This document shows, one piece after another, positions 2,936 to 57,490 of a DNA stretch of 64,000 nucleotides (position 1 is its first letter; every line of letters starts with the position of its first letter). The translations under genes were made by a program, and so were the position numbers. The notes under the pieces were generated by a model. The model saw only the letters and a program-made list of their open reading frames with translations. It searched no databases and had not been told where the DNA came from. The stretch covers positions 1 to 64,000 of the forward strand of contig PCCP01000110.1 in the NCBI GenBank assembly GCA_002731775.1. The letters run 5' to 3'. The DNA comes from Gammaproteobacteria bacterium. GTDB taxonomy: Bacteria; Pseudomonadota; Gammaproteobacteria; Pseudomonadales; Pseudohongiellaceae.

Positions 2936-3361
2936 TTAGCGGGGTGGCTGTTGCCGCTCCTCGACGCGACCACCCTCGAGCACAGGGCTGCCGTCGGCTT
3001 TCGTCATACGTACGCAGCACAGACCACGTGAGCCCTCGGCTCGGGATGGGCGGCCCGAGGCCTTCACCATCAGGCCCAGAGGCAGCGAGTCAGGTGTCCA
3101 GCCAGTGCGTCTGAGACTCACCGGCGCGCCAAGCTCGATCTGCCACTCAGTTGTTTCCCCATTCGCCCCGCTTACGTCGAGGTACAGGAACGCATGGGGA
3201 TTTCTGAAGACGAATCGTGTCACCTTGCCCTCGATCTCGACGCGTTTCTCCTGATCGTAAAAAGGCGCGCTGGAGTGGTGGGCGACGACTGGCGCAACCA
3301 CGAGTGCGAGTCCTGTGCCGGCCGCTGCCGTGGCGGCTGCTATCCATCGGTTGATGCGCAT
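2936..3361 (-). CDS. DUF6152 family exported protein
   Basis: A 141-residue exported protein. The signal peptide covers about residues 1-27 (ending PVVAH), followed by HHSSAPFYDQEKRVEIEGKV and the FRNPHAFLYLDV block that defines DUF6152. The His-His-Ser at the mature N terminus could bind metal, as could the Cys-Cys near residue 115, but neither is proven. It lies 135 bases upstream of the secreted 'PDLAGIW' gene on the same strand, so the two probably belong together. Confidence 0.85.
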   Translation of the reverse strand: MRINRWIAAATAAAGTGLALVVAPVVAHHSSAPFYDQEKRVEIEGKVTRFVFRNPHAFLYLDVSGANGETTEWQIELGAPVSLRRTGWTPDSLPLGLMVKASGRPSRAEGSRGLCCVRMTKADGSPVLEGGRVEERQQPPR

Positions 3362-3574: not shown

Positions 3575-4759
3575 TTATTTGACTATCGACGTCGCTACGA
3601 CCTCTGAACGGGATAGCCTGGGATTTGAATCATGGGCATTGACAGTGACTTCGTTCCAGCCCATCACAAATCCTGTTCCGAATGAACTGATTGAGGGAAT
3701 CAATGAGTCTGCTCTGGTCCTGCTGAGCCGTTGAATTTTCGATTTTGGCTTGCCCACTGCATTGAGTTCCTGGAAATACACTTCGTGTTGCTCCTCGTCA
3801 CTGTCACTCCAGGCAAGGCCCAGTTTAGCTCCGTTCCATGCCAGGTACGAGCCAATCGAATTACCATCGGTACTACTGATGCGAATAGCTCTCGATTCCA
3901 GATTTTCTCTAAGTCGTGGACTCGAAATTTCGGTGAGTTCACGAACAGTGACATAGATTTCATTATTGCCAGACAGCTCATCGAACCAGGTCAGTGCAAT
4001 CTTGCCTTGCCGCAGCGCTATGTCCGGGTATTTTGAGGCGTAGCCATCATCGGCGCTGAGCCGATTGACCGATATGCCTGCATCGGAAACCCGGGCAACA
4101 TAGAGTTCGCTGGCAACAGTCTCATGCTCGGCATCAAAGGCCAGTAGCGCCGTAGCTGAGACGTCGTCAGTTTCTATGGCTAAATTGAGATTCCAGGTGG
4201 TGGTGCTGGCTGTGGCAACGAAGAAGGGCTCGGATTTATTGGAGCCGGCGGCGTCTATCCGGACAGCGACCACCGCAGCGGCACCGGGCTGACCGTTAGT
4301 ATCGATGGCAGTTTCTAACCAGGCAACAAACAACTCTGCGCCCACCGTTTCGAGCACTGGAATTCGGGCATCGATATCGGCAAGTGTGAGGTTCCTGATC
4401 CACAATTGCTCACCCTGTCGATTCCAGAGACCGAGCCTCACCACACCGTGGTCGGAGGCATCTAGTTCATACCAGGTGGCAGCGATGTTTGCACCCAGCG
4501 CCACAATGTCGACTTCGTACGATTGCGCATCATTTTCGCTGAGTCGGAATTCGGTAGAAATCGGTTTCAGCTGATGGTCCAGCAGGCGCAGGTATATTTC
4601 AGCTTGCGGATGACGCGTATCGTACCAGGCCAGGGCCACCGTATTGTCATCCAGGGATTCAATATCGGCTTCGAAGGCACCATAGCCACTGTTACTAACC
4701 TGAGTGATTCCATTACACCCTGGTAGCAATACGAGTAGCAGGTAGATCAGATTCCGCAA
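3575..4759 (-). CDS. Propeller-like lipoprotein at the end of the Hmu-like operon
   Basis: A 394-residue lipoprotein. The signal is followed by a lipobox (LLPGC), predicting lipidation at Cys15. The mature chain has at least five repeats of about 50-65 residues with a common A-x-x-W-[YF]-[DE]...E[IV]Y core (ALAWYDTRHPQAEIY, ALTWFDELSGNNEIY, GLAWSDSDEEQHEVY), suggesting a beta-propeller. The gene starts four bases after the CobN-like stop codon, so it is probably the last cistron of that operon. By position it could be the surface or periplasmic substrate-binding partner, comparable in role to HmuY but unrelated in sequence. That role is inferred. Confidence 0.8.
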   Translation of the reverse strand: MRNLIYLLLVLLPGCNGITQVSNSGYGAFEADIESLDDNTVALAWYDTRHPQAEIYLRLLDHQLKPISTEFRLSENDAQSYEVDIVALGANIAATWYELDASDHGVVRLGLWNRQGEQLWIRNLTLADIDARIPVLETVGAELFVAWLETAIDTNGQPGAAAVVAVRIDAAGSNKSEPFFVATASTTTWNLNLAIETDDVSATALLAFDAEHETVASELYVARVSDAGISVNRLSADDGYASKYPDIALRQGKIALTWFDELSGNNEIYVTVRELTEISSPRLRENLESRAIRISSTDGNSIGSYLAWNGAKLGLAWSDSDEEQHEVYFQELNAVGKPKSKIQRLSRTRADSLIPSISSFGTGFVMGWNEVTVNAHDSNPRLSRSEVVATSIVK

Positions 4760-4763
4760 GATT

Positions 4764-7700
4764 CTAAACCGCAGTGGGGCGATTCATTCTGCGGCGGAAC
4801 CACCAGAATAATAGTAGTAATAATACCAGGCCCTGGAAGATATAAGCGAAGCTGCTATTTTCCAGTGCAGAGAGGTCGATTTGCAGCGGCTGGGCCTGGG
4901 GCTGCTCTATGGGCTCCATGGCGAAGCCTTGCAGCGTCGCAGCGGTTTCATATAGCTCGGCGATGCGGGCATCATTATTGTTGGCGAAATTCTCGGCGGC
5001 GCGGGCAAGCGTTTCGATGCTGGCCTGAATCGCAGTTTCCACAGCCTGTCGAAACTCCGACAAATCCAGGCCCGACAAGCCGCTGTTTTCACCCTCGAGC
5101 AGGACGTATTCCATCAGTCGCGGATTATCGCAGCTGACTTCGGTGCAGTTGATGCCGTGCTTATTAACCGAGTCGACATAGGCTTTGAGCAATTCGGTCA
5201 AGGTCTCCTGATCGGCATCCCAATATTGCTTGCGAATCGTTTCCAGCATTCGCACCGACAGATCCTGAAACGCATAGGGTGAATTGTCGTCAAAAAATTC
5301 TTCCATGCCCAGTTCGTACTTGTCTTGCACGTAGACAGCGAACGACTGTTGCCACATATTATCATCGATGGTTTCCGACACCGTAGCATCCCAGCCCCAC
5401 ATATATTCCACGAACTCAACCATGTTGCGGGCGCCGGCATAGCCTTCGGCCTGCATGCCCCGTATCCAGGTAGGATTGATGTAGCGGGTATTGAATTCCA
5501 TGCCGATAAATTTATCGATACTGGACATTTCCGGTTGTGAGGGATTGCGGGTGTTGGTCACTAACAGATCGGGCGCGTCTCCATCCACAGTCTTGATGGC
5601 GGCGGCCAGGCCTCCCATGTACATGAAGAAGTCATCATTATCCAGCGCCCCGTAGAGCATGGTTGAACTTGAGTGCACGACCTTATCCACGCCGGCCAGG
5701 GCGAGCTTGAATACGTCCTGCATGGGCTCGCCCCAGAAGCCGTTGCCAAAACCGTGCCCCATCTTGTTGATATAGTCATTGACCATGCCAAGATCTGAAT
5801 CCCAGGTACCGCTGGCCGCAGCGATATTTGAAGTATTCAGGCTATAGGTGCCAGGTGGCTCATCAAATATGCGTACACCGGCTCGCCGGTCGGCATCCTC
5901 CTCGGAATATCCTGAATCCATAAGCGCCGCTCTGGTGGCAAGGTAGTGATCGCGAACGAAATTCTCGGTTTCCTGCAGGGCCTTAACTTTTTGCACGGCC
6001 TGATCCATCAGCACGGTCACATTGTTGAACATGCCCTCAGCCGCGCTGGCGATGATGATATCAATCCGGGGCCGACCGAGTTCCGAGGCGGCAATGACTT
6101 CGATGCCAACCACCTTGTCGCGGCCATCCCATACCGGTCGCGTTCCCAGCAGATAAAAAATCTGTGACTCCACGATGCCCTCATGACGCATGGTCTCGTC
6201 GCCCCATATCACGAAAGAAATTTTTTGCGGATATTCGCCGTGCTCAGCGAGGTGATCTGCAAGCATCTGGTCTGCCAGTTTGACGCCTAACTCCCAGGCC
6301 GCCTTCTTCGGCACCTTGTCTGGATCGATACCATAGAAGTTTTTGCCAGTGGGGTAGGCATCGGGATTTCGTATCGGTTCACCACCGCTGCCTGCGCCGA
6401 CAAACCCTCCAGACAGGGAATTGAGCAGGCTGCCTATCTCTCTACCGGCTGACTCTATGATGCTGTCTTCGATTTGTTGGGAATAATAGAATTCTGATTC
6501 AGGTAGCTGGGAGCGGTCAGCCGCGAAAATCGCCGCTACCGTGGTCCGCCGCATTTCTTCGGTCGGTAGTTCGCCAAAGGTATGCAAGCCGTAGGGAATG
6601 AACTGGCTTCGTAGTGCCACCATGTGGTCCTGAATCTCATGCAAGAGCTCATGCTCCAGCAAGTCGCTGGCATCTAGGGTCAGCGCGATGCCCAGGCTCT
6701 TGGCGATGCCGGTAGCCTGTACCTGTTCGACGATCTGCCGGGCGTAGATTTTCGCCAGCGCCTCGTTCTTGTGGAGATTGTTGTGATAGTCATTAATGGA
6801 TTCGCTCAAAGCCGCCAGATCGCTGTACAGATCGCTGGCGATAAAAGGGGGCACCATGTGATCTACCAGGGTCGCCATGCCGCGACGCCGCGCGATCAGG
6901 CCCTCACCTACCACATCGACGTTGTAAATATTGATGTTGGGTATGTCGGCGAGCAGGGCGTCGGGCGCGTCCTCTGCACTCAGACCGGTATCTTTACCAT
7001 CCAGCCACTCCAAAGTACCATGTGTCCCCATATGGATAATGGCGTCTATATCAATCTCATGGCGCAACCAGGAATAGGCGGCTACGTACTGATGGTGCGG
7101 TGCCAGATCATCGGCGTGATAAAGCTTCTCCAGGTCCTCACTCCAGCCCCGCACCGGTTGCGGCATCAAGATAATATTGCCGTATTCGAGTCGCGGTATG
7201 ACAAATATCTTGTGGTTTTCAAGCTGATAAGTCATCAGATCTTCTTCGGCGGGGTCTCCCCAATCCTGCAGAATTTTGTTGCGTAGTGACGGCTCTAGGG
7301 CATCCAGCCAGGTGTTATAAGTCTCCACTGTTACCGTGTCAAAGCTGTTGAAGGCCAGCATTTCCTCCATATCTCCCGGGGCATAACTGCCAATGTTGCG
7401 GGCCCTGGAGGTGATGTCAGCAAGAATACTGTCGGCACTGAGATCGGCATCGCCGAGGTCGTAACCGGAATCTCGCATCGCCGAAAGAATATTCTCCAGA
7501 GATTCGGCAATATTGAGATAGCTGGCGCCGATACTGGCTTTGCCGACCGGATAATTGTAGAACATCATCGCGATGCGCCGGTCCTGCATTGGCTTCTGCG
7601 CCAGGCGTGCATAGCGCAGGCCACGCATTACAGCCATCTCAATACGTGGAGCTATTGGCTTGTCTACCACGATGGAGATATTGGTGGCGGCGTCAAATTG

Positions 7701-8780
7701 CCGCTCGCGAGAGCCAACGACGGTGGGCGCAATCAATCCCGCCAATTCCGGTACTGCCACCTGAAAGGTGCCTTCAAACAGCGAAAGACCCGTAGATGAT
7801 TGCCGCCATTCCTGCTCAGAGCGCCCGTAAAGTGTTGCCAGATTGATGATCGGGATATTGATATTGGCCAGGGATCGGGAAGAATCGAAGTTGGCGAAAC
7901 GCATCAGAAAACTCAGGCCGACATCCGCCCGCGCCGCACCGTTTTCATCGATCAGCATGTGTTCGAACGCAAGGTGGCCGGGGAAGCCAAAGAAGGGAAT
8001 TGCGATCGCGCCGGCGCGCTCTATTTCGGCGATGATCGCATCCACCACTTCGGTTTCGCTGCCGTAAAACGTTGACTTGTAAAAGCCAATAGCAACCCGA
8101 AGCTTGTTTGCCTCCATCAAGCCTCGCCCATGCATCCAGGCCGCAAACTCATCCCAATCTTCGAACGCCTGTCCGCCAGCATCACCGGGGTAGTAGTAGG
8201 CGAAATCCAGGCTGGGCTGAGGCGGGGGGATGGTCAGGCCTGTTACTCCGGCCAGTTGCAGGGAAAATTTCAGTAAAGACAACTGGTTTTGCTGGCCACC
8301 GTTCTGCCAATAAGCCAGCGCGGTTTCATCCCATACCGCACCTTGGCCAGTGAAATAGTCGAGTGGCTGCACGCCGCTTCCTACCGCAATCACCGCGCCG
8401 TCTGTGGTGACCTCATTGATCAAATCGATGTCGTGGGCCGCATTAAATCGATCCAGTATCGACTGATTCATCATATCCAATACTAAAACGTCAGAATTGG
8501 AAATTACCCCAGGGTCGGCTTCAACCAAAAAAGACTCGGTCAGAAATTGCAGGGAGATGCGCCCGTCCAGATCCGGGTTTTGGCGAATCAGGCTGCGATA
8601 GGCCTCCAGAGTTCCGATCATGTTGCCGTCTGAAAACAGGTAGCTAATGGTTATTTGATCGTCACTCGGGTCGGCGTTCGGCTCAGTCTGGGCAGCAGCA
8701 GGGGCTATGAGTAGCAGACAAGTCAGGGACAGCAGCAGGGGCAATAAAGAGGATGACCTTGTCGAAAGGGATCGAAGCAT
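4764..8780 (-). CDS. hmuS: HmuS-type secreted CobN-like chelatase/dechelatase
   Basis: A 1338-residue CobN/BchH-family protein. Unlike cytoplasmic CobN of B12 synthesis, it has a signal peptide (residues 1 to about 31, ending APAAAQ) and a C-terminal membrane anchor (about 1310-1328, then RRRMNR), so its catalytic body lies in the periplasm. The family signature HMGTHGTLEWLDGK is intact, with H583 and H587. No cobS, cobT or other cobalamin genes are nearby. Neighbours are ExbB-like and DUF2149 genes and a TonB-dependent receptor, as in the hmuYRSTUV loci of Bacteroidota, where HmuS acts on heme. Removal of metal from an imported tetrapyrrole is the likeliest role; the actual substrate is inferred. 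Confidence 0.85.
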   Translation of the reverse strand: MLRSLSTRSSSLLPLLLSLTCLLLIAPAAAQTEPNADPSDDQITISYLFSDGNMIGTLEAYRSLIRQNPDLDGRISLQFLTESFLVEADPGVISNSDVLVLDMMNQSILDRFNAAHDIDLINEVTTDGAVIAVGSGVQPLDYFTGQGAVWDETALAYWQNGGQQNQLSLLKFSLQLAGVTGLTIPPPQPSLDFAYYYPGDAGGQAFEDWDEFAAWMHGRGLMEANKLRVAIGFYKSTFYGSETEVVDAIIAEIERAGAIAIPFFGFPGHLAFEHMLIDENGAARADVGLSFLMRFANFDSSRSLANINIPIINLATLYGRSEQEWRQSSTGLSLFEGTFQVAVPELAGLIAPTVVGSRERQFDAATNISIVVDKPIAPRIEMAVMRGLRYARLAQKPMQDRRIAMMFYNYPVGKASIGASYLNIAESLENILSAMRDSGYDLGDADLSADSILADITSRARNIGSYAPGDMEEMLAFNSFDTVTVETYNTWLDALEPSLRNKILQDWGDPAEEDLMTYQLENHKIFVIPRLEYGNIILMPQPVRGWSEDLEKLYHADDLAPHHQYVAAYSWLRHEIDIDAIIHMGTHGTLEWLDGKDTGLSAEDAPDALLADIPNINIYNVDVVGEGLIARRRGMATLVDHMVPPFIASDLYSDLAALSESINDYHNNLHKNEALAKIYARQIVEQVQATGIAKSLGIALTLDASDLLEHELLHEIQDHMVALRSQFIPYGLHTFGELPTEEMRRTTVAAIFAADRSQLPESEFYYSQQIEDSIIESAGREIGSLLNSLSGGFVGAGSGGEPIRNPDAYPTGKNFYGIDPDKVPKKAAWELGVKLADQMLADHLAEHGEYPQKISFVIWGDETMRHEGIVESQIFYLLGTRPVWDGRDKVVGIEVIAASELGRPRIDIIIASAAEGMFNNVTVLMDQAVQKVKALQETENFVRDHYLATRAALMDSGYSEEDADRRAGVRIFDEPPGTYSLNTSNIAAASGTWDSDLGMVNDYINKMGHGFGNGFWGEPMQDVFKLALAGVDKVVHSSSTMLYGALDNDDFFMYMGGLAAAIKTVDGDAPDLLVTNTRNPSQPEMSSIDKFIGMEFNTRYINPTWIRGMQAEGYAGARNMVEFVEYMWGWDATVSETIDDNMWQQSFAVYVQDKYELGMEEFFDDNSPYAFQDLSVRMLETIRKQYWDADQETLTELLKAYVDSVNKHGINCTEVSCDNPRLMEYVLLEGENSGLSGLDLSEFRQAVETAIQASIETLARAAENFANNNDARIAELYETAATLQGFAMEPIEQPQAQPLQIDLSALENSSFAYIFQGLVLLLLLFWWFRRRMNRPTAV

Positions 8781-8786
8781 GGGGCA

Positions 8787-9134
8787 CTAGTTGCCGTTTT
8801 CCACTTCCGGGACGTAGATAACCTGGCCATCGGGGAGGCGGTAAGCAATGCCCAGGCGGACTCCATCACCACCGGATATGGCATCGGCAGTCACTCTGTA
8901 GGCTTCAATTTCCGTACCCCGTCGGGTGATGATCTCCTGATCGCCATTGGGGTTGGTTAACACCATGGTGACTTCCGTTTCTGGATTCAATAAGCCTCCC
9001 ATGCGATAAACCGAGAACAAGGAGATCATCAGGCCGACGATAAACACCACCGATACGTCGAATAGATTGGCGATTCCCGCCAAGGGATCTTCTTCGATTT
9101 CTTCGGGCATCGGCAATTTTAGAAATTTGCTCAT
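8787..9134 (-). CDS. DUF2149 protein (HmuV-like, ExbD-like topology)
   Basis: A 115-residue protein. A short cytoplasmic start containing EEDPLAGIANLFDVSVVF leads into one membrane helix (about residues 25-45) and a periplasmic domain of about 65 residues. The DPLxGxANLFD stretch is the hallmark of DUF2149. The topology copies ExbD/TolR, which partner ExbB-like channels, and the preceding gene encodes such a channel seven bases upstream. It probably forms the rod subunit of a proton-driven motor serving the CobN-like protein or the receptor. Confidence 0.85.
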   Translation of the reverse strand: MSKFLKLPMPEEIEEDPLAGIANLFDVSVVFIVGLMISLFSVYRMGGLLNPETEVTMVLTNPNGDQEIITRRGTEIEAYRVTADAISGGDGVRLGIAYRLPDGQVIYVPEVENGN

Positions 9135-9140
9135 GAGTTA

Positions 9141-9758
9141 TTATGCAGCCGTTTCCGCTAATATCCGTTCGGCGATAAAGCGTAGCTCTCTAATGGCCTC
9201 ATTAGCCCATCCCTGCCGAACCATGTTGATGACATAGGCGCCGGTACCGCAGGCGAGCCCGATAATGGTAGTGGTGAAGGCGACAACCATTTGCCCTGCC
9301 ATGGCTTCGAGGTTTCCTGCTGCCATGGCGGCAAGAGATACTCCCATGGGGATCAGGGTTCCCAACAGGCCAAGACTTGGGCCTACCTTGATTAACATCT
9401 TTGATGGATTAAGCTCGTGCTTCAACTCTTCTTCGGCCTCCATCACCAGATGTTCCAGGCCGCCGTCCTTCAGCTCGCCTGCCGCCTTATTGTGATGCAC
9501 AGCTTCGACAAAATTTTTCAGGAAGGCTGGCAGGTGGGAAAACTCTGTGGCGTCGGGATTGAGAATTTCCACGTCTTGCAGCCAGACCTTTATATTGAAG
9601 CCAGTTCGTTCCTTGCGCCTCGATAAATATTCGATGAGGCAGACCCCGGCCATAAAACACACGGAAGCGACGCATACCCATAACAGGAGCATCACCGGAA
9701 ATCGCAATACCTGGCTCAGCCCGAATAAACCACCCTCGAGGATACCTAATAAACTCAT
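9141..9758 (-). CDS. ExbB/TolQ/MotA-family proton channel subunit
   Basis: A 205-residue protein started at ATG 9758, which overlaps the TGA of the upstream gene as ATGA, implying translational coupling. It has one N-terminal helix (about residues 17-38), a cytoplasmic loop, and two C-terminal helices. The GPSLGLLGTLIPMGVSLAAM and MVVAFTTTIIGLACG segments are typical of the MotA/TolQ/ExbB family. Longer in-frame starts exist but would run into the upstream coding region. It is followed by the DUF2149 gene and is presumed to harvest proton motive force with it. Confidence 0.85.
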   Translation of the reverse strand: MSLLGILEGGLFGLSQVLRFPVMLLLWVCVASVCFMAGVCLIEYLSRRKERTGFNIKVWLQDVEILNPDATEFSHLPAFLKNFVEAVHHNKAAGELKDGGLEHLVMEAEEELKHELNPSKMLIKVGPSLGLLGTLIPMGVSLAAMAAGNLEAMAGQMVVAFTTTIIGLACGTGAYVINMVRQGWANEAIRELRFIAERILAETAA

Positions 9759-10351
9759 CGCACCTTCCATTTTGCATAGATGCCACCCAGCACAAGAAAG
9801 GCGAGGGACAAAATTAGTACTCCGACATTGGCGTAGGTCTCGGTTTGACCCGCGTCCAATGACTGTAAATTTGAGGCTACCTGCCAACCCGAAATAGCTG
9901 TTGGTACAATGCTGACTACCAGTGACAGGGCTATGACAATTAGAAGTGCCTCATCACGTAGCTGACTCGATCCGAAATCTTTTTTGTGTATGGCGCAATA
10001 AAATGTGATTGCCGCAACCAGGCTAACAGCAACTGTCACTATCGACCCCGGATAACCCAATGTGACCAGAGCATTTATCCACACTGCCCCCATCATGCCG
10101 CCCAATACTACCGCTGCGGAACGCCATTTTCCTTTATGCAGAATGGTAAAAGCAGCCAGAGCCAACACGGTAGCGAGATGTGTCGGCTCGATTACAACTA
10201 GCCCACGGCCTTGATCCATCCATGTGCCAATTAACAATAGCACTGGAATAAATCCGCTCAGCCAATGAATTCCCTGTCTGCGATGATGCACACAGGCAGT
10301 AAAACTAACTGTTGCAAGCCCACATAATAGAGGGAAAAGCTGATAAGCCAT
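9755..10351 (-). CDS. Polytopic membrane protein, first gene of the Hmu-like operon (HmuT-like position)
   Basis: A 198-residue protein with about six membrane helices and little soluble sequence. I do not recognise a named domain. It is the first cistron of the operon that continues through ExbB-like, DUF2149, CobN-like and lipoprotein genes, and its stop overlaps the next start. In Bacteroidota hmu loci a comparable small membrane protein sits next to the ExbB-like and DUF2149 genes, so it probably belongs to the same complex. Confidence 0.75.
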   Translation of the reverse strand: MAYQLFPLLCGLATVSFTACVHHRRQGIHWLSGFIPVLLLIGTWMDQGRGLVVIEPTHLATVLALAAFTILHKGKWRSAAVVLGGMMGAVWINALVTLGYPGSIVTVAVSLVAAITFYCAIHKKDFGSSQLRDEALLIVIALSLVVSIVPTAISGWQVASNLQSLDAGQTETYANVGVLILSLAFLVLGGIYAKWKVR

Positions 10352-10472
10352 TTAAAAAGTCCCGGCTAAAAGTTTTTGTACTGTACGTACCTTACGGGGT
10401 TTTAGCTATGCCAATTCTCCACGGCGTTGGCTGAGGCAGGTGGCTAGCTAGATATCCTTTATATATCAACTA

Positions 10473-10503
10473 GTTAAATTAGTGTGAACAACGTTAATTT
10501 AAC
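10473..10503. promoter_or_regulatory. Palindrome in the divergent hmu-like/receptor control region
   Basis: The 308-base gap between the minus-strand operon (start 10351) and the plus-strand receptor (start 10660) is AT-rich in its middle. It contains a perfect nine-base inverted repeat, GTTAAATTA / TAATTTAAC, separated by 13 bases. Such symmetry between divergent genes is typical of a repressor or activator site. It does not look like a Fur box, and no cobalamin riboswitch box was found. The regulator is unknown. Confidence 0.4.
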
Positions 10504-10659
10504 GGTTAAAAACAAACTTTACATACGCAACAGCTAAAAATGCGAGTAACATGCGAGCCGTCGTAGAAAAGGTGGAACAGCAGTTGAGGCTTTTACTACC
10601 CACTTTTTTGCCAAACAGCGTCAATTCGCCCCGTGTCACTCGATAACAAGGGAACACCA

Positions 10660-12531
10660 ATGCAAGGATTAAAGCTGGGGTTATTTACCCTGGGCATCGC
10701 TACCGGTTTATTTTTGAACAGCGCTGTTTATTCCCAGGAATCCTCTAGTCCGCTAGAAGAAATCATCGTCACTTCCAGTCTGATACCGATACCCATGCGC
10801 CAGATAGGCACTTCGGTTTCGGTGATAACGGAGACTGAGATTAACGCCCACGGCAATCTGTTATTGGTGGACATATTACGGCAGATGCCTGCGATAGCCA
10901 CTAGTAACAATGGCGGTGCCGGCAAGGCAACGTCACTTAGAATTCGTGGCGAAGAAGGGTTTCGAACCCTTACGATTTTTGATGGTATGCGTCTGTCGGA
11001 CCCCGCCAGCACCCAGATTGGTTCCCAACTCGAACATCTAATGAGTGACGGTATAAGCCGGGTAGAAGTGTTGCGTGGGCCACAGGGATTAGCCTACGGT
11101 GCCGACGCCGGCGGTGTCGTGAATATCAGTTCACGCTCCGGCGAAGAGGCTTTTTTTGCCAATATCGATGCCCAGGCTGGAGAGTTAGGCACTAATCGGC
11201 TCGGCGCTAACGTGGGAGGCGGCAACGACAGGGTCGATTATTTTCTATCGGTGAGTGATTTTGAAACCGATGGCTACAACACACGGCAATCGGATTCTGT
11301 GCTCAGAGATGACGATGGCTATACCAATACTACCATTCACGGCAGGTTGGGAATTGCTCTATCGGAAAATCTGCGTGTGGATCTGGTGCATCGACAGGTT
11401 GATGGGGATTCCCAGTTCGACGGCTGTTTCTCCGGTACCACGGTACATGACTGTGCATCGGACTATGAGTTGAGAGCGTCACGCGCCGCATTGGAATACA
11501 GCTCAGATAACTTCACCCACTCCCTGTCTTTCTCCAATACAGAAACGGACAGGGAAAACTTCGCCCTCGGTGTTTCCGCCTTCACCGCAAATGGTCAACT
11601 TAAGCGCTGGGAATACCTTGGCAGTGCTACCAATCTGCCTGGTTTCGATCTGGTCATTGGCATCGACCATGAGCAGGCCAGCAATAATGGTATCAGTCGC
11701 GATAATGACGGCTACTACCTGGAATACCTGAGTGATTTCTCCAATAACTTTTATATCACCGCCGGGATTCGTCATGACGACAATGATGATTTTGGCAGCA
11801 ACACCAGTCATCGAGTTAGCATGGCCTACCTGATTGATCTGCCCAATAACGGTATCCTGAAGTTCAAGAGTAGTCTTGGAACCGGGTTTCGTGCTCCCAG
11901 CCCTTTTGAAGTTGCATACAACGCCGGTCCATTTGCATTTCCTCCAGCCGCCCTGGTTGCACTCACTCAGGAACAGAGTGAGGGTTATGAGTTCGGGGTT
12001 GAATATGTGCTGGGGAACCGCGTGCGCCTGGAGGCTGTATATTTTGATCAGGACGTGGAGGATGCTATATTTTTTGACCTGGCGGGATTCAGCGGATACC
12101 TGCAAGACGTGGGCACCAGCACCTCCAAGGGAGTAGAAATCACGGCTGACCTGCAATTGAGCGATAGCTTGCGACTGACTTCTAATTACACATACAACGA
12201 CACGGAACGGCCCAATGGCCTACAACGGCGTCGTCGGCCAGAAGACTTGATGAATATTGGCCTGGCGTATACAGCTTTGGGCGATCGCTTGAATATCAAT
12301 GGATTCTATCGAATTTCCCGTGATGCAACGGACGAGATTTTTGGTAGCCCGGTTGATCTGGATGATTTCGAGGTGCTGGATATCAGCGCCAGCTATCGGT
12401 TCACGGATAATTTCAGCATTTATGCCAGGCTGGAAAATGCCTTCGATGAAGACTATGAGGAAATAACCGGTTTTTACTCTCCAGACCGGGCCGCTTACCT
12501 TGGCTTCAAGCTAAACTTCTCGGCAAACTGA
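10660..12531 (+). CDS. BtuB/HmuR-like TonB-dependent outer-membrane receptor
   Basis: A 623-residue receptor started at ATG 10660, with AAGGGA six bases upstream; a GTG at 10633 in the same frame lacks such a site. The signal peptide ends near YSQE. A TonB box-like EEIIVTS follows, then a plug domain (IPMRQIGTSVSVITETEI, LRIRGEEGFRTLTIFDGMR, RVEVLRGPQGLAYGADAGGVVNI) and a 22-strand-type barrel ending in a hydrophobic strand. The size is close to BtuB and HmuR. It is divergent from the CobN-like operon and is the obvious importer for that system's tetrapyrrole substrate. Confidence 0.88.
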   Translation: MQGLKLGLFTLGIATGLFLNSAVYSQESSSPLEEIIVTSSLIPIPMRQIGTSVSVITETEINAHGNLLLVDILRQMPAIATSNNGGAGKATSLRIRGEEGFRTLTIFDGMRLSDPASTQIGSQLEHLMSDGISRVEVLRGPQGLAYGADAGGVVNISSRSGEEAFFANIDAQAGELGTNRLGANVGGGNDRVDYFLSVSDFETDGYNTRQSDSVLRDDDGYTNTTIHGRLGIALSENLRVDLVHRQVDGDSQFDGCFSGTTVHDCASDYELRASRAALEYSSDNFTHSLSFSNTETDRENFALGVSAFTANGQLKRWEYLGSATNLPGFDLVIGIDHEQASNNGISRDNDGYYLEYLSDFSNNFYITAGIRHDDNDDFGSNTSHRVSMAYLIDLPNNGILKFKSSLGTGFRAPSPFEVAYNAGPFAFPPAALVALTQEQSEGYEFGVEYVLGNRVRLEAVYFDQDVEDAIFFDLAGFSGYLQDVGTSTSKGVEITADLQLSDSLRLTSNYTYNDTERPNGLQRRRRPEDLMNIGLAYTALGDRLNINGFYRISRDATDEIFGSPVDLDDFEVLDISASYRFTDNFSIYARLENAFDEDYEEITGFYSPDRAAYLGFKLNFSAN

Positions 12532-12580
12532 TTGTGTAGCGCCGATGGCCTTGCGGGTCCATCCGCAATTACCTGGTCTA

Positions 12581-12614
12581 AAAAGGGGTGATCTCAGGAT
12601 CGCCCCTTTTTTTG
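12581..12614 (+). terminator. Rho-independent terminator of the receptor gene
   Basis: AAAAGGGGTGATC, the loop TCAG, then GATCGCCCCTTTT with further T residues. The stem has at least nine pairs including one G-T pair and is followed by a run of seven or more T. It lies about 50 bases after the receptor stop codon. Confidence 0.8.
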
Positions 12615-12914
12615 TTTGTTCAACTGGGACAGCCCCCGGCATTGGTAGTAGTGCAATTGCAAACAATGAGGGATCATGCTTTGATTAAGAATTCTTGCCC
12701 AACAATTAGTTGAATGATCAGAATAATGTTGAAACTGCGCTAGCGGGTGTTATCGATGCTATTGCTGCGCTTGCTAAGCTGAATGGGGGCAAGCTGACAA
12801 TGCAGAGAATTGATTAACGCCGGCTGTATTGTATCTCAGGGCTTCGATGCGGTGCGTACTCCACTGCACCTCACCATTTTCCAGTAGACACCAAACCCAA
12901 TGGAGATTAGAAAG
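12615..12914. other. Intergenic region with a possible coding remnant
   Basis: No gene is evident. From TTG 12710 to TAA 12817 an open frame of 35 codons reads like protein (alternating Ala/Ile/Leu, then LNGGKLTMQRID) but has no ribosome binding site. It may be the 3' end of a lost gene. The final bases hold the leader of the VOC gene. Confidence 0.3.
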
Positions 12915-13484
12915 ATGGGTATTGAATTTGATGGAATACATCACATGGCGTTGGTATGCAAAGACATGGAAAAAACAGTGGACTTTTATACCAATATCCT
13001 TGGCATGAAATTGGTGAAGGGATTCGATCTTGGCATGGGAATGGGCCAGCATTTCTTTTTCGATATGGGCGGCAATAATTTATTGGCTTTCTTCTGGTTT
13101 AACGGTGCCCCCGAGTCGGCGCCGGGCATTGCGTCGGTTGAAAACCTTATCGGCAATGGGGGCATTAGCTCTGCTCATGGCTCTATGAACCACGTGGCCT
13201 TCCATGCGCCACTGGACAACATCGAGGCCTTCAGGGAAGAACTGGTCGATAAGGGTGTGGAATGCTCGAAGATGATCAACCACGCCGATGTCGAAGCAGT
13301 TGCTGGCGACACGCGCACCACCGAGGAAGTTGAAGCCAGCACCTGGGTTCGGTCCTTCTATTTTCTGGATCCGGACGGGATCATGTTGGAATTTTGTGCC
13401 CCGGTGACGGCGGGTACAGACGAGCTGACTCTACCGGTGAATGCGCAAGGACAGAAGGCAGATGGCAGTAGTTTGAGCGCTTGA
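12915..13484 (+). CDS. VOC-superfamily protein (glyoxalase/extradiol dioxygenase fold)
   Basis: A 189-residue protein started at ATG 12915, with GGAG nine bases upstream. It has two beta-alpha-beta-beta-beta repeats. The first carries GIHHMALVCKDMEKTVDFYTNILGM; the second has MNHVAFHAP and ends in the classic DPDGIMLEF strand. His at about position 10 and Glu in IMLEF are plausible metal ligands. An alpha/beta hydrolase follows 43 bases downstream, resembling ring-cleavage or lactone pathways, but the substrate is not indicated. Confidence 0.87.
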   Translation: MGIEFDGIHHMALVCKDMEKTVDFYTNILGMKLVKGFDLGMGMGQHFFFDMGGNNLLAFFWFNGAPESAPGIASVENLIGNGGISSAHGSMNHVAFHAPLDNIEAFREELVDKGVECSKMINHADVEAVAGDTRTTEEVEASTWVRSFYFLDPDGIMLEFCAPVTAGTDELTLPVNAQGQKADGSSLSA

Positions 13485-13527
13485 ATCTGTCTGCTTGACT
13501 GGCGGCCAAGTCATTGGAGTTTGCAGC

Positions 13528-19933: not shown

Positions 19934-20740
19934 ATGATATCTCTTATAAAAAACCTACCGAACTGCCAATTTTTCACGCATTTCCGAAACTATGTTCCGT
20001 TGCTACTACTGGCTGGATTGCAGCAGGGCCTGGCACAGGAATTCGGCGATCATCAATATACCACCGAGGCGATAGAGGCGGGTTCCCGGGTCTATACCCA
20101 ACAATGTGCTCTCTGCCACGGGCCCCAGGGCGCCCTCGTTGATGGAGTCGATCTACGACGAGGCCAATTTCCGACGGTGCGCTCCGATGCGGACCTTCGG
20201 AATTTGATCAGTTCCGGGGCCGGGGAAGGTCGCATGCCTGCGTTCGAGTTGCGGCAGGAAGAGATGAATGGCGTGATCGCCTACCTCCGGGCCGGATTCG
20301 ATCCCGACGGCATCGCCGTCAAAATAGGTGATCCGGGCAGGGGGCAGGTCCTGTTTCGGGGCAAGGGAGAATGTGCAACGTGTCATCGGGTCAACGGGAT
20401 TGGTCCTCGGACTGCGCCCGATCTCAGTTTCATCGGCGCGATTCGTACACCGGTATCCCTACAGCGCAATCTACTGGATCCAGGTACCGCGCTTCTGCCT
20501 ATTAATAAGCCTGTGCGTATCGTTACCCGCAATGAGGAGACCATTGTCGGCAGACGCCTCAATGAGGATACCTACACGGTTCAGGTGATCGATTCCCAGG
20601 AACGGCTGCGATCATTGAAAAAATCTGACCTGGTCAGCTACGAGATCAGCGATGCCCCATCCAAACAACCCACTACGCTTTCCAGCGATGAGGTGGCCGA
20701 CGTCATCAGCTACCTGCTTACTTTGAGAGGTCTGCAATGA
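19934..20740 (+). CDS. Diheme cytochrome c, electron acceptor of the adjacent quinoprotein
   Basis: A 268-residue periplasmic protein. After an N-terminal signal segment ending near GLAQ, it has two cytochrome c domains with heme motifs C58-ALC-H62 and C147-ATC-H151. Likely axial Met residues lie at EGRMPAF in the first domain, while the second is less clear. A C-terminal segment ends VADVISYLLTLRG. The stop codon overlaps the start of the following PQQ dehydrogenase gene as ATGA, so both are made together and this is the probable electron acceptor. Confidence 0.88.
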   Translation: MISLIKNLPNCQFFTHFRNYVPLLLLAGLQQGLAQEFGDHQYTTEAIEAGSRVYTQQCALCHGPQGALVDGVDLRRGQFPTVRSDADLRNLISSGAGEGRMPAFELRQEEMNGVIAYLRAGFDPDGIAVKIGDPGRGQVLFRGKGECATCHRVNGIGPRTAPDLSFIGAIRTPVSLQRNLLDPGTALLPINKPVRIVTRNEETIVGRRLNEDTYTVQVIDSQERLRSLKKSDLVSYEISDAPSKQPTTLSSDEVADVISYLLTLRGLQ

Positions 20741-22398
20741 AAGTTATTAAACCGATCTGGCTTACGATCTGCATAGCTACCATGTTGATTGTGGCCCTGA
20801 ATGTTTCTGCACAGGTCTCTTACCAACGTATTCTGAATGCCGCCGACGAGCCCGGGAACTGGTTAACCTACAACGGTGGATACTCAAGTCAGCGCTACAG
20901 TCGACTGGATCAGCTTACGCCGGAAAACGTAGACCAATTGCAATTACAGTGGACTCTGCAGAACCAGGTGTTCGGTGCCTGGCAGTCAAATCCCATTATC
21001 GTCGACGGTATTATGTATGTCACCGAGAGACCTAACAGCGTGATGGCGCTTGATGCCATCACCGGTCGCGTGTTCTGGAAATATCGCCACGTGCCCGCCG
21101 ATAATGCACTGGTCTGCTGCGGTGCCAACAACCGCGGTGTAGCCGTGCTTGGTGACAAGGTCTTCATCGGGACCCTGGACGCCCGCCTGGTGGCCCTGGA
21201 CCGCATCAACGGTCAGCCACTTTGGAACGTTGAAGTGGGCGATGTGAGTCTGGCGTACTCGGTCACCATGGCGCCATTGGCAGTGAAAGACAAAATCATC
21301 GTCGGTGTGGGCGGTGGTGAATATGGCATCCGTGGCTACGTCGCCGCCTATGATGCCAATACCGGCAAACAAGCCTGGAAGACCTACACCATTCCTGGTC
21401 CTGGTGAACCCAATCATGACAGCTGGCAGGGTGACGACTGGAAGCATGGCGGTGCGCCAGTCTGGATCACCGGCTCTTTCGATCCCGATCTGAACCTGAC
21501 TTATTGGGGGGTCGGTAACCCGGGGCCGGATTGGAACGCCGGCCAGCGTCCGGGGGACAATCTCTACTCAGACTCGGTGATCGCGCTCGATGCCGACACC
21601 GGGGAGCTGGAATGGTATTTCCAGTTCACGCCTAATGACGGTTACGACTACGATTCCGTACAGGTTCCTGTACTGGCGGATATCGTGTTCAAGGGCACAC
21701 CCACCAAGGTTATGATGTGGGCGAATCGCAACGGCTACTTCTATGTGCTTGATCGCGTCAGCGGGGAATTCCTCGTCGGCAAACCCTATGTCACCGTGAA
21801 CTGGTCCAGCGGCCTGGATGAAAACGGTCGGCCGATAACAACACCTCAGCCGGAGGGCATGCCCACTTATCCGGGTAACCAGGGCGGTACCAACTGGTAC
21901 CCACCTTCCTACAGTCCACGCACAGGCTTGTTCTACTTCAGTGCCTGGCAAGACTACGCCACAATTTATCGGGCAGAGGAATCCGAATATGAACCCGGCC
22001 GCGCATTTCTCGGGGGCGGTTTTTCCGTGCTGGCACCGGCGCCAGGTGCACCTACTATTGGTATTGGTCGTACCAACCCGATAAATAACTGGACCAATGA
22101 AGTCGGCCATGCCTCGCTCAAAGCTATGGATCCACAGACCGGTGAAGCAGTCTGGTCCTACGATCAGTTCGATGTCAGTGACAGCGGCATGCTGACCACG
22201 GCTTCGGATTTGTTGTTCACCGGCGGTAGGGAAGGCTACTTTCACGCCATCGATGCCCGCAGCGGTGACTTGTTATGGCATGTCAATCTCGGCGGGCAGA
22301 TCGTGATGGCGCCGGTTACCTACATGGTGGATGGGGTGCAGTACGTGTCGGTTATCTCCGGTCATGCCTTGTCCACATTTGCACTTCGCGACAGCTAA
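20737..22398 (+). CDS. PQQ-dependent (quinoprotein) alcohol dehydrogenase
   Basis: A 553-residue exported quinoprotein with a signal peptide ending at NVSAQ. It has eight-bladed propeller repeats with tryptophan-docking sequences (ALDAITGRVFWKY, AYDANTGKQAWKT, ALDADTGELEWYF, AIDARSGDLLWHV). The adjacent cysteines C127-C128 form the vicinal disulphide that covers PQQ in methanol and ethanol dehydrogenases. It is translationally coupled to a diheme cytochrome c. The lanthanide or calcium preference is not decided here. The substrate is probably an alcohol or aldehyde. Confidence 0.9.
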   Translation: MKVIKPIWLTICIATMLIVALNVSAQVSYQRILNAADEPGNWLTYNGGYSSQRYSRLDQLTPENVDQLQLQWTLQNQVFGAWQSNPIIVDGIMYVTERPNSVMALDAITGRVFWKYRHVPADNALVCCGANNRGVAVLGDKVFIGTLDARLVALDRINGQPLWNVEVGDVSLAYSVTMAPLAVKDKIIVGVGGGEYGIRGYVAAYDANTGKQAWKTYTIPGPGEPNHDSWQGDDWKHGGAPVWITGSFDPDLNLTYWGVGNPGPDWNAGQRPGDNLYSDSVIALDADTGELEWYFQFTPNDGYDYDSVQVPVLADIVFKGTPTKVMMWANRNGYFYVLDRVSGEFLVGKPYVTVNWSSGLDENGRPITTPQPEGMPTYPGNQGGTNWYPPSYSPRTGLFYFSAWQDYATIYRAEESEYEPGRAFLGGGFSVLAPAPGAPTIGIGRTNPINNWTNEVGHASLKAMDPQTGEAVWSYDQFDVSDSGMLTTASDLLFTGGREGYFHAIDARSGDLLWHVNLGGQIVMAPVTYMVDGVQYVSVISGHALSTFALRDS

Positions 22399-25277: not shown

Positions 25278-27299
25278 ATGCATACTCTAATTACAAAAAG
25301 AATTTCACTGCTTGCAGCTGTCCTGGTGGTGTTTTCTTCGAATCTGGTAGTCGCTCAAGGCACCACCGAATGGCTAACCCTGGGTGGCGATTATGCCCAT
25401 ACCCGATCTACACTAGCCGACGAGATTACGGCAGAAAATTTTGCTGAGCTTGATGTCGCCTGGGAGTGGGATGGCGCCAGCTTCGGCGCTGTGAGCGGAC
25501 GCTCTACTCCTTCCTTGATCGACGGCAAGCTATATACTGTGGCTGGTAACAAGCGCTATGTAATCGCGCTCGATCCCAAAACCGGCGAAACCATCTGGTC
25601 GTATCGCGAACCCGATACCCCCCGTGGCGAGTACTCCATGCGTGCCGATTATGGCAAGGGCGTGGGTTATGCCAAGATCGATGGCAGGGGTGTGATTTAT
25701 ATCATCTCACCCGGATTTTTCCTGACCGCCCTGGATGCCGAGACCGGTGTTCCTATTGAAGGCTTCGGTCGACCCGTTCCTATCGACGGCTTCCCGCAAA
25801 CCGGCGTTGTCGATTTGTTGGCTGATCTGGGACATCCCTATGACCCTTATGAGGGGCTGCCTCTGGAAACCGGTTATATCACCTCCTCCTCTCCACCGCT
25901 GGTGGTTAATGACGTGATTATCGTCGGCAACTCGGCGGAGCAAGGTTACCATCAGTCCCGTATCGAAAATGTGCCGGGTGACATCCTGGCCTATGATGCT
26001 CACACCGGTGCCCTGAAGTGGAAATTCAACGTGATCCCACAGCCAGGCGAGTACGGCCATGAGACCTGGGAAAATGATGCCTGGGAATGGACGGGCGATG
26101 TGTCTTCATGGGCGCCTCTATCCGCCGATCCTGAAAACAACCTGGTTTTTATTCCCACCAATAGCGCCACCATCGATTACTATGGTGTCTTCCGACCTGG
26201 AGATAATCTCTATGGGGCGAGTATCATCGCGCTTGATACCCGTACCGGGGAACGGGCCTGGCATTTTCAGATGGTTCATCATGAAGTCTGGAATTTCGAC
26301 AATCCGACAGCACCGGTGCTGCTCGATCTGAACATGCCGGGTCGAGGCAGCGTACCTGCTGTCATGCAAGTGACGAAGCAATCCTGGGTCTATGCCTTCG
26401 ATCGCATTACCGGTGAGCCCCTGTGGCCAATCGTGGAGCGACCCGTGCCTGCGTCCATCGTCCCGGGCGAGGTGCTGTCTCCGACGCAACCCCATGTTAC
26501 GAAACCAGCCCCTTACGACATACAGGGCATAACTATCGACGATCTGGCGGATTTCACACCGGAGATCCGGCGCCAGGCAATCGAAGCCCTGGCGGATTAT
26601 CAGATGGGGCCACTGTTCAACCCACCCATTCATGCCGGCAATTCAACCGGCAAATTTGCCGCCATGAACTGCCCCGGTGGTGGTGGCGGCGCCAACATCA
26701 CCGCGCCTGCGGTGGCTGATCCTGCTACTGGAATGCTCTATATTTCCTCCCACAGTTCCTGCTTCGCGCTGCGTCTGATTCCCGGTGAGGAAGCTGACCT
26801 GCTGTATCCAAATACTACGGGTGCAACACTGTCTGAGTGGGCGAATGCGGGTCCCGGTGCGACTGCAAGGCCGCCGCGACATCCGGCAGGCATCCCCATC
26901 TTGAAGCCACCCTATAGTCGCATTACCGCTATCGATATGAACACCGGTGAACATGCCTGGATGATTCCTACTGGGGAAACCTCGGACCGAATCCTGAATA
27001 ATCCAGCCCTCGCTGGCATCGATATCGGCAACACCGGCACCGGTGCACTGGTGCCGATGGTAGTCACTGCCAATATGCTGGTTTATTCAGATTCCGCCCA
27101 TGACGGCACGCCGATGCTGTACGCCATCGATAAGGCCAGTGGTGAAATCATGGCACAGACAGAAGCACCGGCACGTAGCAGCTATGGCATGAGTTCATGG
27201 GTGCACGATGGTCATCAGTACATCATCTTACAAACCGGCTCCAAGCTGACAGCGATGGCATTACCCGGTGCGATGGTGGAGGCAGGCGCCGCCCACTAA
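25278..27299 (+). CDS. Secreted PQQ-dependent dehydrogenase
   Basis: A 673-residue exported quinoprotein of the glucose dehydrogenase-like class. The signal peptide ends VVAQ, and a GGAGGAG ribosome binding site precedes the ATG. Propeller motifs include ALDPKTGETIWSY, AYDAHTGALKWKF, ALDTRTGERAWHF and AFDRITGEPLWPI, plus NCPGGGGGANI. The vicinal Cys pair of alcohol dehydrogenases is absent. It lacks a cytochrome domain and has no cytochrome gene beside it, so its electron acceptor lies elsewhere. A strong terminator follows, indicating a single-gene transcript. Confidence 0.88.
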   Translation: MHTLITKRISLLAAVLVVFSSNLVVAQGTTEWLTLGGDYAHTRSTLADEITAENFAELDVAWEWDGASFGAVSGRSTPSLIDGKLYTVAGNKRYVIALDPKTGETIWSYREPDTPRGEYSMRADYGKGVGYAKIDGRGVIYIISPGFFLTALDAETGVPIEGFGRPVPIDGFPQTGVVDLLADLGHPYDPYEGLPLETGYITSSSPPLVVNDVIIVGNSAEQGYHQSRIENVPGDILAYDAHTGALKWKFNVIPQPGEYGHETWENDAWEWTGDVSSWAPLSADPENNLVFIPTNSATIDYYGVFRPGDNLYGASIIALDTRTGERAWHFQMVHHEVWNFDNPTAPVLLDLNMPGRGSVPAVMQVTKQSWVYAFDRITGEPLWPIVERPVPASIVPGEVLSPTQPHVTKPAPYDIQGITIDDLADFTPEIRRQAIEALADYQMGPLFNPPIHAGNSTGKFAAMNCPGGGGGANITAPAVADPATGMLYISSHSSCFALRLIPGEEADLLYPNTTGATLSEWANAGPGATARPPRHPAGIPILKPPYSRITAIDMNTGEHAWMIPTGETSDRILNNPALAGIDIGNTGTGALVPMVVTANMLVYSDSAHDGTPMLYAIDKASGEIMAQTEAPARSSYGMSSWVHDGHQYIILQTGSKLTAMALPGAMVEAGAAH

Positions 27300-56899: not shown

Positions 56900-57490
56900 G
56901 TGAATTCAAGACTTACCCGCAGACATTTCATCAAAGGGGTGATATACAGCAGCGCCGCTGCCACCTCAGGTGCCGGCTTTTATCTCGCCAATGCAGCATC
57001 AAATCGGCAGCCCGGCGCTGTCGAGCGACTGATTGCTATCAACGTCAACGGTCGTACTCGAAGAGTCGATGTACAACCCCAGGAAACCCTGGCCCATACC
57101 CTGCGCAACCGTCTGAACCTGACCGGTACCAAAGTCAGCTGCAATCGGGGTGAATGTGGCTCTTGCACGGTATTGATCGACGACAAGGCTATTTACTCCT
57201 GCTCGATCCTGACCCAACAAGTCAAGGGCAAGGAGATAACTACAGTGGAAGGATTGAGAGCCGCAGATGGCAGCTTGCATCCGGTGCAGCAGGCCTTTAT
57301 CGAAGAGCTGAGCCCCCAGTGTGGTTTTTGTACACCGGGCCAGGTGATGTCGGCAGTTGCCCTGTTGCGAGCCAATCCCAACCCGACTCGGGAACAGGCC
57401 CGCCTGGGATTATCCGGCAATCTGTGCCGATGTGGCGCCTATGATCATTATCTCAATGGCGTGATGCGCGCTGCGGAGCTTATCTCATGA
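56900..57490 (+). CDS. Tat-exported 2Fe-2S subunit of a xanthine-oxidase-family enzyme
   Basis: A 196-residue small subunit with a twin-arginine signal (RLTRRHFIKG, GTG start). A plant-type cluster uses Cys81, Cys86, Cys89 and Cys101 (CNRGECGSC...C). The second cluster uses Cys141, Cys144, Cys176 and Cys178 (CGFC...CRC). All eight cysteines are present. The stop overlaps the start of the molybdopterin subunit as ATGA. As in PaoABC, the Tat signal would carry the whole complex to the periplasm. No FAD subunit gene accompanies it, as in isoquinoline oxidoreductase-type enzymes. Confidence 0.92.
   Translation: MNSRLTRRHFIKGVIYSSAAATSGAGFYLANAASNRQPGAVERLIAINVNGRTRRVDVQPQETLAHTLRNRLNLTGTKVSCNRGECGSCTVLIDDKAIYSCSILTQQVKGKEITTVEGLRAADGSLHPVQQAFIEELSPQCGFCTPGQVMSAVALLRANPNPTREQARLGLSGNLCRCGAYDHYLNGVMRAAELIS

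Follow-up and report, generated by a model that had tools for sequence, protein, structure and literature searches.

Introduction

Homologues of the class I chelatase CobN that are encoded together with a TonB-dependent receptor and a small set of membrane proteins have been described in several bacteria, where they were linked to heme iron, zinc or cobalamin. A locus of this kind is found in a contig of a gammaproteobacterium of the family Pseudohongiellaceae (GenBank assembly GCA_002731775.1, contig PCCP01000110.1, positions 1 to 64,000). The whole stretch of 64,000 nucleotides is called the window in what follows. An earlier note on this DNA had taken the locus for a Hmu-type system that imports a metallo-tetrapyrrole and strips its metal in the periplasm. 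Our analysis points instead to a locus that handles corrinoids, which are the probable substrate.

In the hmuYRSTUV loci of Bacteroidota the CobN-like protein is HmuS, which is exported and anchored and is encoded with a polytopic protein, an ExbB, a DUF2149 protein, a TonB receptor and a lipoprotein. As described in PMC12583661, HmuS has the signature LSLDHxxEFMGG, which includes His1209 and Glu1212, and a heme site with Met79 and His254, the latter in a His-Gly-Arg tripeptide. HmuS also has the motif HFG(T/A)HG, which includes His538. Since HmuS was recently shown to dechelate heme, loci with exported CobN-like proteins now invite the same label. The window has the same kinds of genes, but its CobN-like protein lacks the HmuS motif and falls in a separate clade, its lipoprotein is a predicted propeller and not HmuY, its receptor is of the BtuB type and no similarity was found between the polytopic proteins. 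The name BtuS comes from Rodionov et al. 2003, with a predicted role in metalloporphyrin salvage (as cited in PMC6460266). According to PMC6460266, BtuS proteins are CobN-related and are neither CobN nor ChlH, those of B. fragilis are predicted to be exported and anchored, and B. fragilis btuS1 btuS2 mutants kept heme dechelation. The window protein answers to this description; however, the studied BtuS1 and BtuS2 concern heme iron, while the clade of the window has many B12-linked members.

The cobN cluster of Trichlorobacter (Geobacter) lovleyi pSZ77/pGLOV01 lies behind cobalamin riboswitches and encodes a receptor, a polytopic DUF2162 protein, ExbB, DUF2149 and a CobN-like protein of the same clade as that of the window. 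It differs in having DUF2162 in the place of the window's polytopic protein and in its ExbB-ExbD-TonB genes and second receptor, and no propeller lipoprotein is annotated in the stretch seen. According to PMC3403914, its authors proposed a tie to cobalamin metabolism, with transport of siderophores, B12 or corrinoid precursors, and stated that CobS and CobT are missing and that the biochemical role is unknown. One member of the clade had thus already been tied to cobalamin; in the literature covered, which took in few of the subscription journals, we recognized no other paper that assigns a corrinoid role to such proteins. Another gammaproteobacterium, P. aeruginosa, has the same core of four gene types, receptor, CobN-like protein, channel (annotated as ExbD) and DUF2149, in PA1922-PA1925. 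These genes are controlled by Zur (PMC4542158, PMC9431628, PMC8531726, PMC11761036), and a znuA mutant showed a 45 to 147-fold increase in their expression (PMC4542158). Their CobN-like protein belongs to another clade than that of the window, as judged from stand-ins of like gene order, e.g., Stutzerimonas L122. Finally, the CobN of CobNST shares with the window protein the family PF02514 and an Asp at the discriminating position discussed below, but it is cytosolic, is driven by ATP through CobS/CobT and serves de novo synthesis.

Results

Organization and conservation of the locus

The locus consists of an operon on the minus strand and a divergent receptor gene on the plus strand. Its parts are as follows:

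10633..12531, plus strand: BtuB-type TonB-dependent receptor with plug and barrel domains (Pfam); likely start ATG at 10660
10352..10632, between the two strands' genes: divergent intergenic region, in which a cobalamin riboswitch was not found
9755..10351, minus strand: polytopic inner-membrane protein, 198 amino acids, with 5 strong hydrophobic segments (hydropathy)
9141..9758, minus strand: ExbB-like proton channel (PF01618, E 1.9e-11); the open reading frame (ORF) opens at 9887 and the likely start is ATG at 9758
8787..9134, minus strand: DUF2149 protein (PF09919, E 5.9e-25)
4764..8780, minus strand: CobN-like class I chelatase homologue, 1338 amino acids (PF02514, E 6e-296), exported and C-terminally anchored by hydropathy
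3575..4759, minus strand: predicted beta-propeller lipoprotein with a TTG start and LLPGC near the start; fold from an AlphaFold2 model

The earlier note had described a tight operon for a polytopic protein, an ExbB-like channel, DUF2149, an exported and C-terminally anchored CobN-like protein and a lipoprotein, divergent from a receptor, and this was confirmed. The polytopic and ExbB-like genes overlap by 4 bases, and the following gaps measure 6, 6 and 4 bases. In the CobN-like protein, residues 12-30 and 1310-1328 form the two hydrophobic segments that point to export and anchoring. The proposed start of the ExbB-like protein matches the equivalent Met where the ORF of its homologue in G638 begins. 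Here and below, G000 is the genome of the window, a metagenome-assembled genome (MAG) with a completeness of 90%, the other G labels are compared genomes and the L labels are compared loci. All six proteins recur in two genomes of the same genus, G646 (91% identity for the receptor and 94% for the CobN-like protein) and G638 (72% for the CobN-like protein, the receptor being cut at a contig end). In the distant locus L063 every protein of the set was found except the polytopic one. This recurrence is more than chance. The set is real and conserved, and it belongs to a type already known.

Sequence and phylogeny of the CobN-like protein

At the place of the HmuS signature the window protein reads LDNDDFFMYMGG, which does not conform to it: Asp1050 and Met1053 occupy the positions of His1209 and Glu1212 (LDHxxE). 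The His-Gly-Arg of heme site 1 was not found in the aligned stretch of the window protein. The equivalent of His538 is present as His587 in GTHG; this His is kept in 66/66 aligned rows, and being common to the whole superfamily it is not diagnostic for HmuS. When compared with solved structures, the window protein scored 448 bits to HmuS (9d26, the best PDB match) and 427 bits to CobN, so that there is no clear preference for either. As a yardstick, the true HmuS of a genome of the same genus (L050, in G022) scored 1018 bits to 9d26 versus 356 to CobN. The alignment has His at the position of HmuS His1209 in 7/7 HmuS, 4/4 BchH and 7/7 PA1923-like rows, and Asp in 4/4 cytosolic CobN, 5/5 long CobN and 7/7 window-group rows. 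The substrates of BchH and HmuS are porphyrins and that of CobN is a corrin, so the cleft residue Asp1050 suggests corrin rather than porphyrin.

A tree of CobN-like proteins was built from 66 rows, 34 of them with unusual letter make-up. Both this tree and that of the receptors were quick searches with support from the Shimodaira-Hasegawa-like approximate likelihood ratio test (SH-aLRT), without bootstrap; the Bacteroidota HmuS sequences were drawn from plasmid records. All seven HmuS, four of them from the window's genus, formed one group (support 100), and the window protein formed a separate group away from it (100) with six relatives, which come from G646 and G638, three Acidobacteriota MAGs and one Altererythrobacter MAG. 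The sister of this group was the anammox pair Jettenia and Brocadia (100), and together they were nested in a 20-row clade (99) with sulfate reducers and Trichlorobacter. A clade with PA1923-like proteins neighbours this wider clade (90). The approximately unbiased (AU) test, carried out on 27 rows with the simpler model LG+G4, rejected a clade of the window protein with HmuS (p = 0.0003).

The motif, the missing His-Gly-Arg, the placement in the tree and the AU test led us to reject membership in HmuS. An ordinary CobNST cobaltochelatase was also rejected: Asp1050 fits CobN, but the protein is exported and anchored by hydropathy, and searches of G000, which did not include CobS, found neither CobT nor CbiC. 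The earlier note had held that a grouping with cobalamin CobN rather than HmuS would refute its Hmu reading. This applies in part: the protein grouped with neither HmuS nor cytosolic CobN, but in a distinct clade of exported proteins, many of them linked to B12.

Other CobN-related genes were seen in the compared genomes. HmuS-type loci with the motif LSLDHVYEFMGG and a polytopic gene occur within the window's genus at L050, L205, L206 and L207 (G022, G636, G635 and G622). A BchH-type magnesium chelatase adjoining a BchL-like gene was found at L203:6799-10806 and L204:4621-8661 (G636 and G635), and from this pairing some members of the genus may be phototrophic. In a deltaproteobacterial MAG, methanogenic archaea and Carboxydocella (L080, L085, L086, L092, L136), between two and four CobN-like genes stand in tandem, with ExbB and/or DUF2149 nearby. 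L045-L049 and L052 encode a long CobN (1433-1568 amino acids, DNNDxxDYLGG) with DUF2149-like neighbours, several of them beside cobalamin-synthesis genes; this is possibly a cobaltochelatase with a proton-driven partner.

The receptor and its orthologs

The best NCBIfam match of the receptor was TIGR01779 (TonB-B12) with 228 bits, the hemin model reaching 109. Orthologs scoring at least 590 bits were present in 48 of the 84 genomes of the genus, its own included, with one per genome at that score. Sixteen ortholog loci were fetched from genomes without a window-type chelatase (L166, L174-L186, L189, L190). The receptor gene adjoins a CobO gene in 10 of these 16, with BtuF, BtuC or CobQ close by; CobO was identified by Pfam in G012 and G025 and by likeness in the other loci. 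All 10 have a cobalamin riboswitch (6, Rfam) or its exact 16-base core (4) upstream, and among the remaining six the core lies upstream in L166, L181 and L185 and is missing from L174, L175 and L176. The receptor tree, which gave a long-branch warning that included L063, placed the window receptor in one group with all the fetched orthologs (100). The window receptor is orthologous to riboswitch-controlled receptors of btu operons. A btuF-cobO-dxs stretch without a receptor is present in G000 and G646, and in G638 cobO lies beside cobQ, again without a receptor (three of the four chelatase genomes, G630 being outside this count). The place of the receptor therefore differs between relatives, and in these genomes it is beside the chelatase operon. 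A second, distant BtuB-like receptor linked to a riboswitch, 27-30% identical to that of the window, was seen in L187 and L188 (G022 and G033).

Cobalamin riboswitches in related loci

Of the 20 loci in the window's clade, 8 carry a cobalamin riboswitch at the head of the operon and on its strand (L033, L065, L066, L067, L068, L075, L240, L202); the one at L071 is on the opposite strand and was left out of the count. L033 also has a BtuF-CbiZ fusion and CbiK. None of the seven HmuS loci has a riboswitch at the operon head. The neighbouring PA1923/TTDD/TNDD/SSDD clade comprises 17 rows, of which 13 were scanned (L039, L043, L051 and L095 were left out) and one, L044, has a riboswitch. At L107 the riboswitch is about 6 kb from the DUF2149 gene. 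Within the genus, the G638 set has a cobalamin riboswitch (64 bits) ahead of the receptor, and in G646 (L231, near 9591) the riboswitch core is ahead of cobO, where other members carry the receptor gene. The cobO-dxs gap of G000 (L229) measures 78 bases and holds no core. An Rfam search of the window returned no family, a permissive one of 8500-13500 gave a single chance-level match to MicX, and the riboswitch core was not found in the divergent region when up to 3 mismatches were allowed.

The ExbB/DUF2149 pair

The DUF2149 protein has one transmembrane helix followed by a beta domain (model with a predicted local distance difference test score, pLDDT, of 78). Its Asp26, located in the transmembrane helix, is invariant in 18/18 and 29/29 aligned sequences (overlapping sets). 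Among 78 CobN-like proteins that have a C-terminal hydrophobic anchor and 2.5 kb of flanking sequence, 71 had both ExbB and DUF2149 within 3.5 kb, a figure biased towards such loci, since DUF2149-linked proteins had supplied the query (the best 80 matches were kept). The remaining seven are L124 and six proteins of methanogens or Carboxydocella. The pair is also found beside an anchored CobN-like protein in several archaea and in Carboxydocella. These organisms do not have an outer membrane. We therefore infer that ExbB/DUF2149 works on the CobN-like protein itself rather than in TonB-dependent uptake alone, and a proton drive of the CobN-like protein by this pair is plausible.

The lipoprotein and the polytopic protein

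No Pfam family matched the lipoprotein at E values up to 0.1. An AlphaFold2 model built from a two-sequence alignment (pLDDT 72) was all-beta, and a Foldseek search with it returned CylK, sialidases and kelch propellers (best E 2.4e-8). Homologues were found in L173, L202 and L063. The lipoprotein is thus a predicted beta-propeller rather than HmuY, as the earlier note had suspected. The polytopic protein gave no Pfam family over the cut-off, and BLAST showed no similarity between it and the protein that takes the place of HmuT in Bacteroides finegoldii. It has homologues in G630, G646 and G638 and, weakly, in L061 and L062, and its gene sits where related operons have HmuT or DUF2162. Our literature search found no paper linking DUF2162 with cobalamin.

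Corrinoid use in the genome of the window

G000 encodes a CobO with BtuF beside it, the corrinoid activator RACo and a FecCD-type permease. Five B12-binding matches were found, four of them over the cut-off, and they include a 1244-residue frame of the size of MetH and a mutase-MeaB fusion. With CbiC and CobT not found in this 90% complete genome, G000 looks like a user of imported corrinoids.

Discussion

Taken together, the receptor orthology, the gene order, the riboswitches of relatives and the cleft residue make a corrinoid the probable substrate. The best reading places the CobN-like protein of the window in a branch of the exported CobN-like (BtuS-type) family that handles corrinoids, with ExbB/DUF2149 as its probable source of energy. 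We consider it reasonably likely that the locus as a whole handles corrinoids, with a periplasmic CobN-like protein driven by the ExbB-like/DUF2149 pair behind a BtuB-type receptor. The receptor would bring cobamides or corrinoid precursors into the periplasm, where the class I chelatase cleft of the membrane-anchored CobN-like protein would hold the corrin. The ExbB-like/DUF2149 pair may drive this protein by the proton gradient, replacing the ATP-driven CobS-CobT motor, and the most likely reaction would be one in which corrinoids that lack cobalt or carry a wrong metal have their central metal inserted or replaced. From there the corrinoid would pass to BtuF and the inner-membrane importer. 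More tentative, and in our judgment doubtful when taken in full, is a broader proposal: that the protein is a periplasmic cobaltochelatase that completes or repairs corrinoids scavenged behind BtuB, with the proton-driven pair in place of the ATP motor; that it belongs to a larger family whose branches each serve a particular metal (iron for HmuS, zinc for the PA1923-like proteins, cobalt for the B12-linked ones); and that a single His/Asp position in the cleft separates porphyrin from corrin users.

Several observations weigh against a corrinoid role. The main weakness is that B12 control is not seen at the window itself. In 12 of the 20 loci of its clade, the window included, the operon has no riboswitch ahead of it; the contigs of L062, L064 and L078 end too early to tell, and in L173 and the window the region is intact. 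No cobalamin riboswitch was found among 108 candidates scored in G000, nor at the receptor in G630, in G646 or in the three nearest receptor loci (L174-L176). Conversely, L044, which belongs to the neighbouring clade and lies in a cobalamin-gene cluster, has its riboswitch ahead of the receptor. The receptor remains below the cut-off of TIGR01779 (BtuB), 228 versus 600 bits, and within its group it falls in a 10-row sub-branch (96) that holds no btu-operon receptor, so it may have changed role. The His/Asp rule is built on few characterized enzymes, and the uncharacterized TTDD and TNDD proteins have Asp too (9/9). As for the drive, the DUF2149 protein compared with the ExbD profile gave an hhalign probability of 1.5%, and a search with its fold returned nothing at E 0.001, ExbD not being among the matches listed. 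The absences in G000 are soft, since the genome is 90% complete.

Four other explanations were considered. The gene types shared with the Bacteroidota loci, and a best PDB match that favors HmuS 9d26 narrowly over CobN, would fit Hmu-type heme dechelation, in which the receptor imports heme and the CobN-like protein takes out the iron as HmuS does. We find this quite unlikely. LSLDHxxEFMGG and His-Gly-Arg are absent, the AU test rejects the HmuS clade, a true HmuS of the same genus separates the two structures by a score of 1018 against 356 bits, and the receptor orthologs sit in btu operons. From the earlier note we retain a TonB receptor paired to an exported, anchored chelatase homologue with its own ExbB/DUF2149, and a lipoprotein other than HmuY. 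Its Hmu-type label and heme find no support, and the receptor orthology, gene order and riboswitches of relatives lead to corrinoids. An unlikely variant on the corrinoid side is cobalt scavenging, by which the CobN-like protein would strip cobalt off imported corrinoids and the polytopic protein would carry Co2+ inward. It has the analogy with HmuS in its favor, as well as the CbiK-like and DUF2162 'predicted transporter' genes carried alongside by the relatives L033, L068 and L075. However, an intact corrin gives up its cobalt only with great difficulty, and with CbiC not found in G000 free cobalt would hardly be useful there for B12 synthesis.

The CobN-like protein could also do no metal chemistry, acting as a corrinoid holdase that passes B12 from BtuB to BtuF while ExbB/DUF2149 energizes the receptor. 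This we regard as very unlikely, since the pair accompanies anchored CobN-like proteins in the archaea and Carboxydocella, where there would be no TonB receptor to energize, and the His of GTHG is kept in every aligned row. Nevertheless, the catalysis of the CobN-like protein is a prediction, and Met1053 stands where most other rows have Gln, Glu or Asp. The retention of heme dechelation by the B. fragilis btuS1 btuS2 mutants, as reported in PMC6460266, also agrees with a holdase. A harvest of zinc or another metal from a tetrapyrrole, by a relative of the Zur-controlled PA1922-PA1925, seems just as improbable. The four core gene types are the same, those of P. aeruginosa respond to loss of znuA (PMC4542158), and the clade that holds the PA1923-like proteins lies next to the wider one of the window. 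Yet the window protein lacks the STDHPFE motif and lies in a different clade (99), as judged from the stand-ins for PA1923 such as Stutzerimonas L122.

Other features of the window

One further feature was recorded next to the receptor gene:

12580..12611, plus strand: terminator-like hairpin of 14 pairs and a T run, 3' of the receptor gene (consensus scan)

Terminator-like sites were not enriched in the region (7 versus a shuffle mean of 9.2), and both promoter-like and terminator-like sites were rarer than their shuffle means in the region scanned. The palindrome GTTAA-T-TTAAC at 10493-10503, in the divergent region, is present also in G630 and G646; it is short enough for chance or could be an operator. 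A DUF6152 protein is encoded at 2936-3361, adjoining the operon. Elsewhere, three PQQ-dehydrogenase-type propeller proteins (PF01011) are found inside 18 kb at 20737-22398, 25278-27299 and 36241-38199, and a molybdopterin hydroxylase subunit at 57487-59925.

Implications

The new part of these results is the branch: a B12-linked relative of HmuS paired with a BtuB-type receptor, within a genus that also holds true HmuS. The Hmu label can therefore mislead even within one genus, where both types occur, and this case supplies criteria of sequence and gene order that separate the HmuS type from the B12-linked type. If the corrinoid branch does metal chemistry, the salvage of B12 would gain an extracytoplasmic step, which to our knowledge is in no current model, and a class I chelatase would be driven by the proton gradient.

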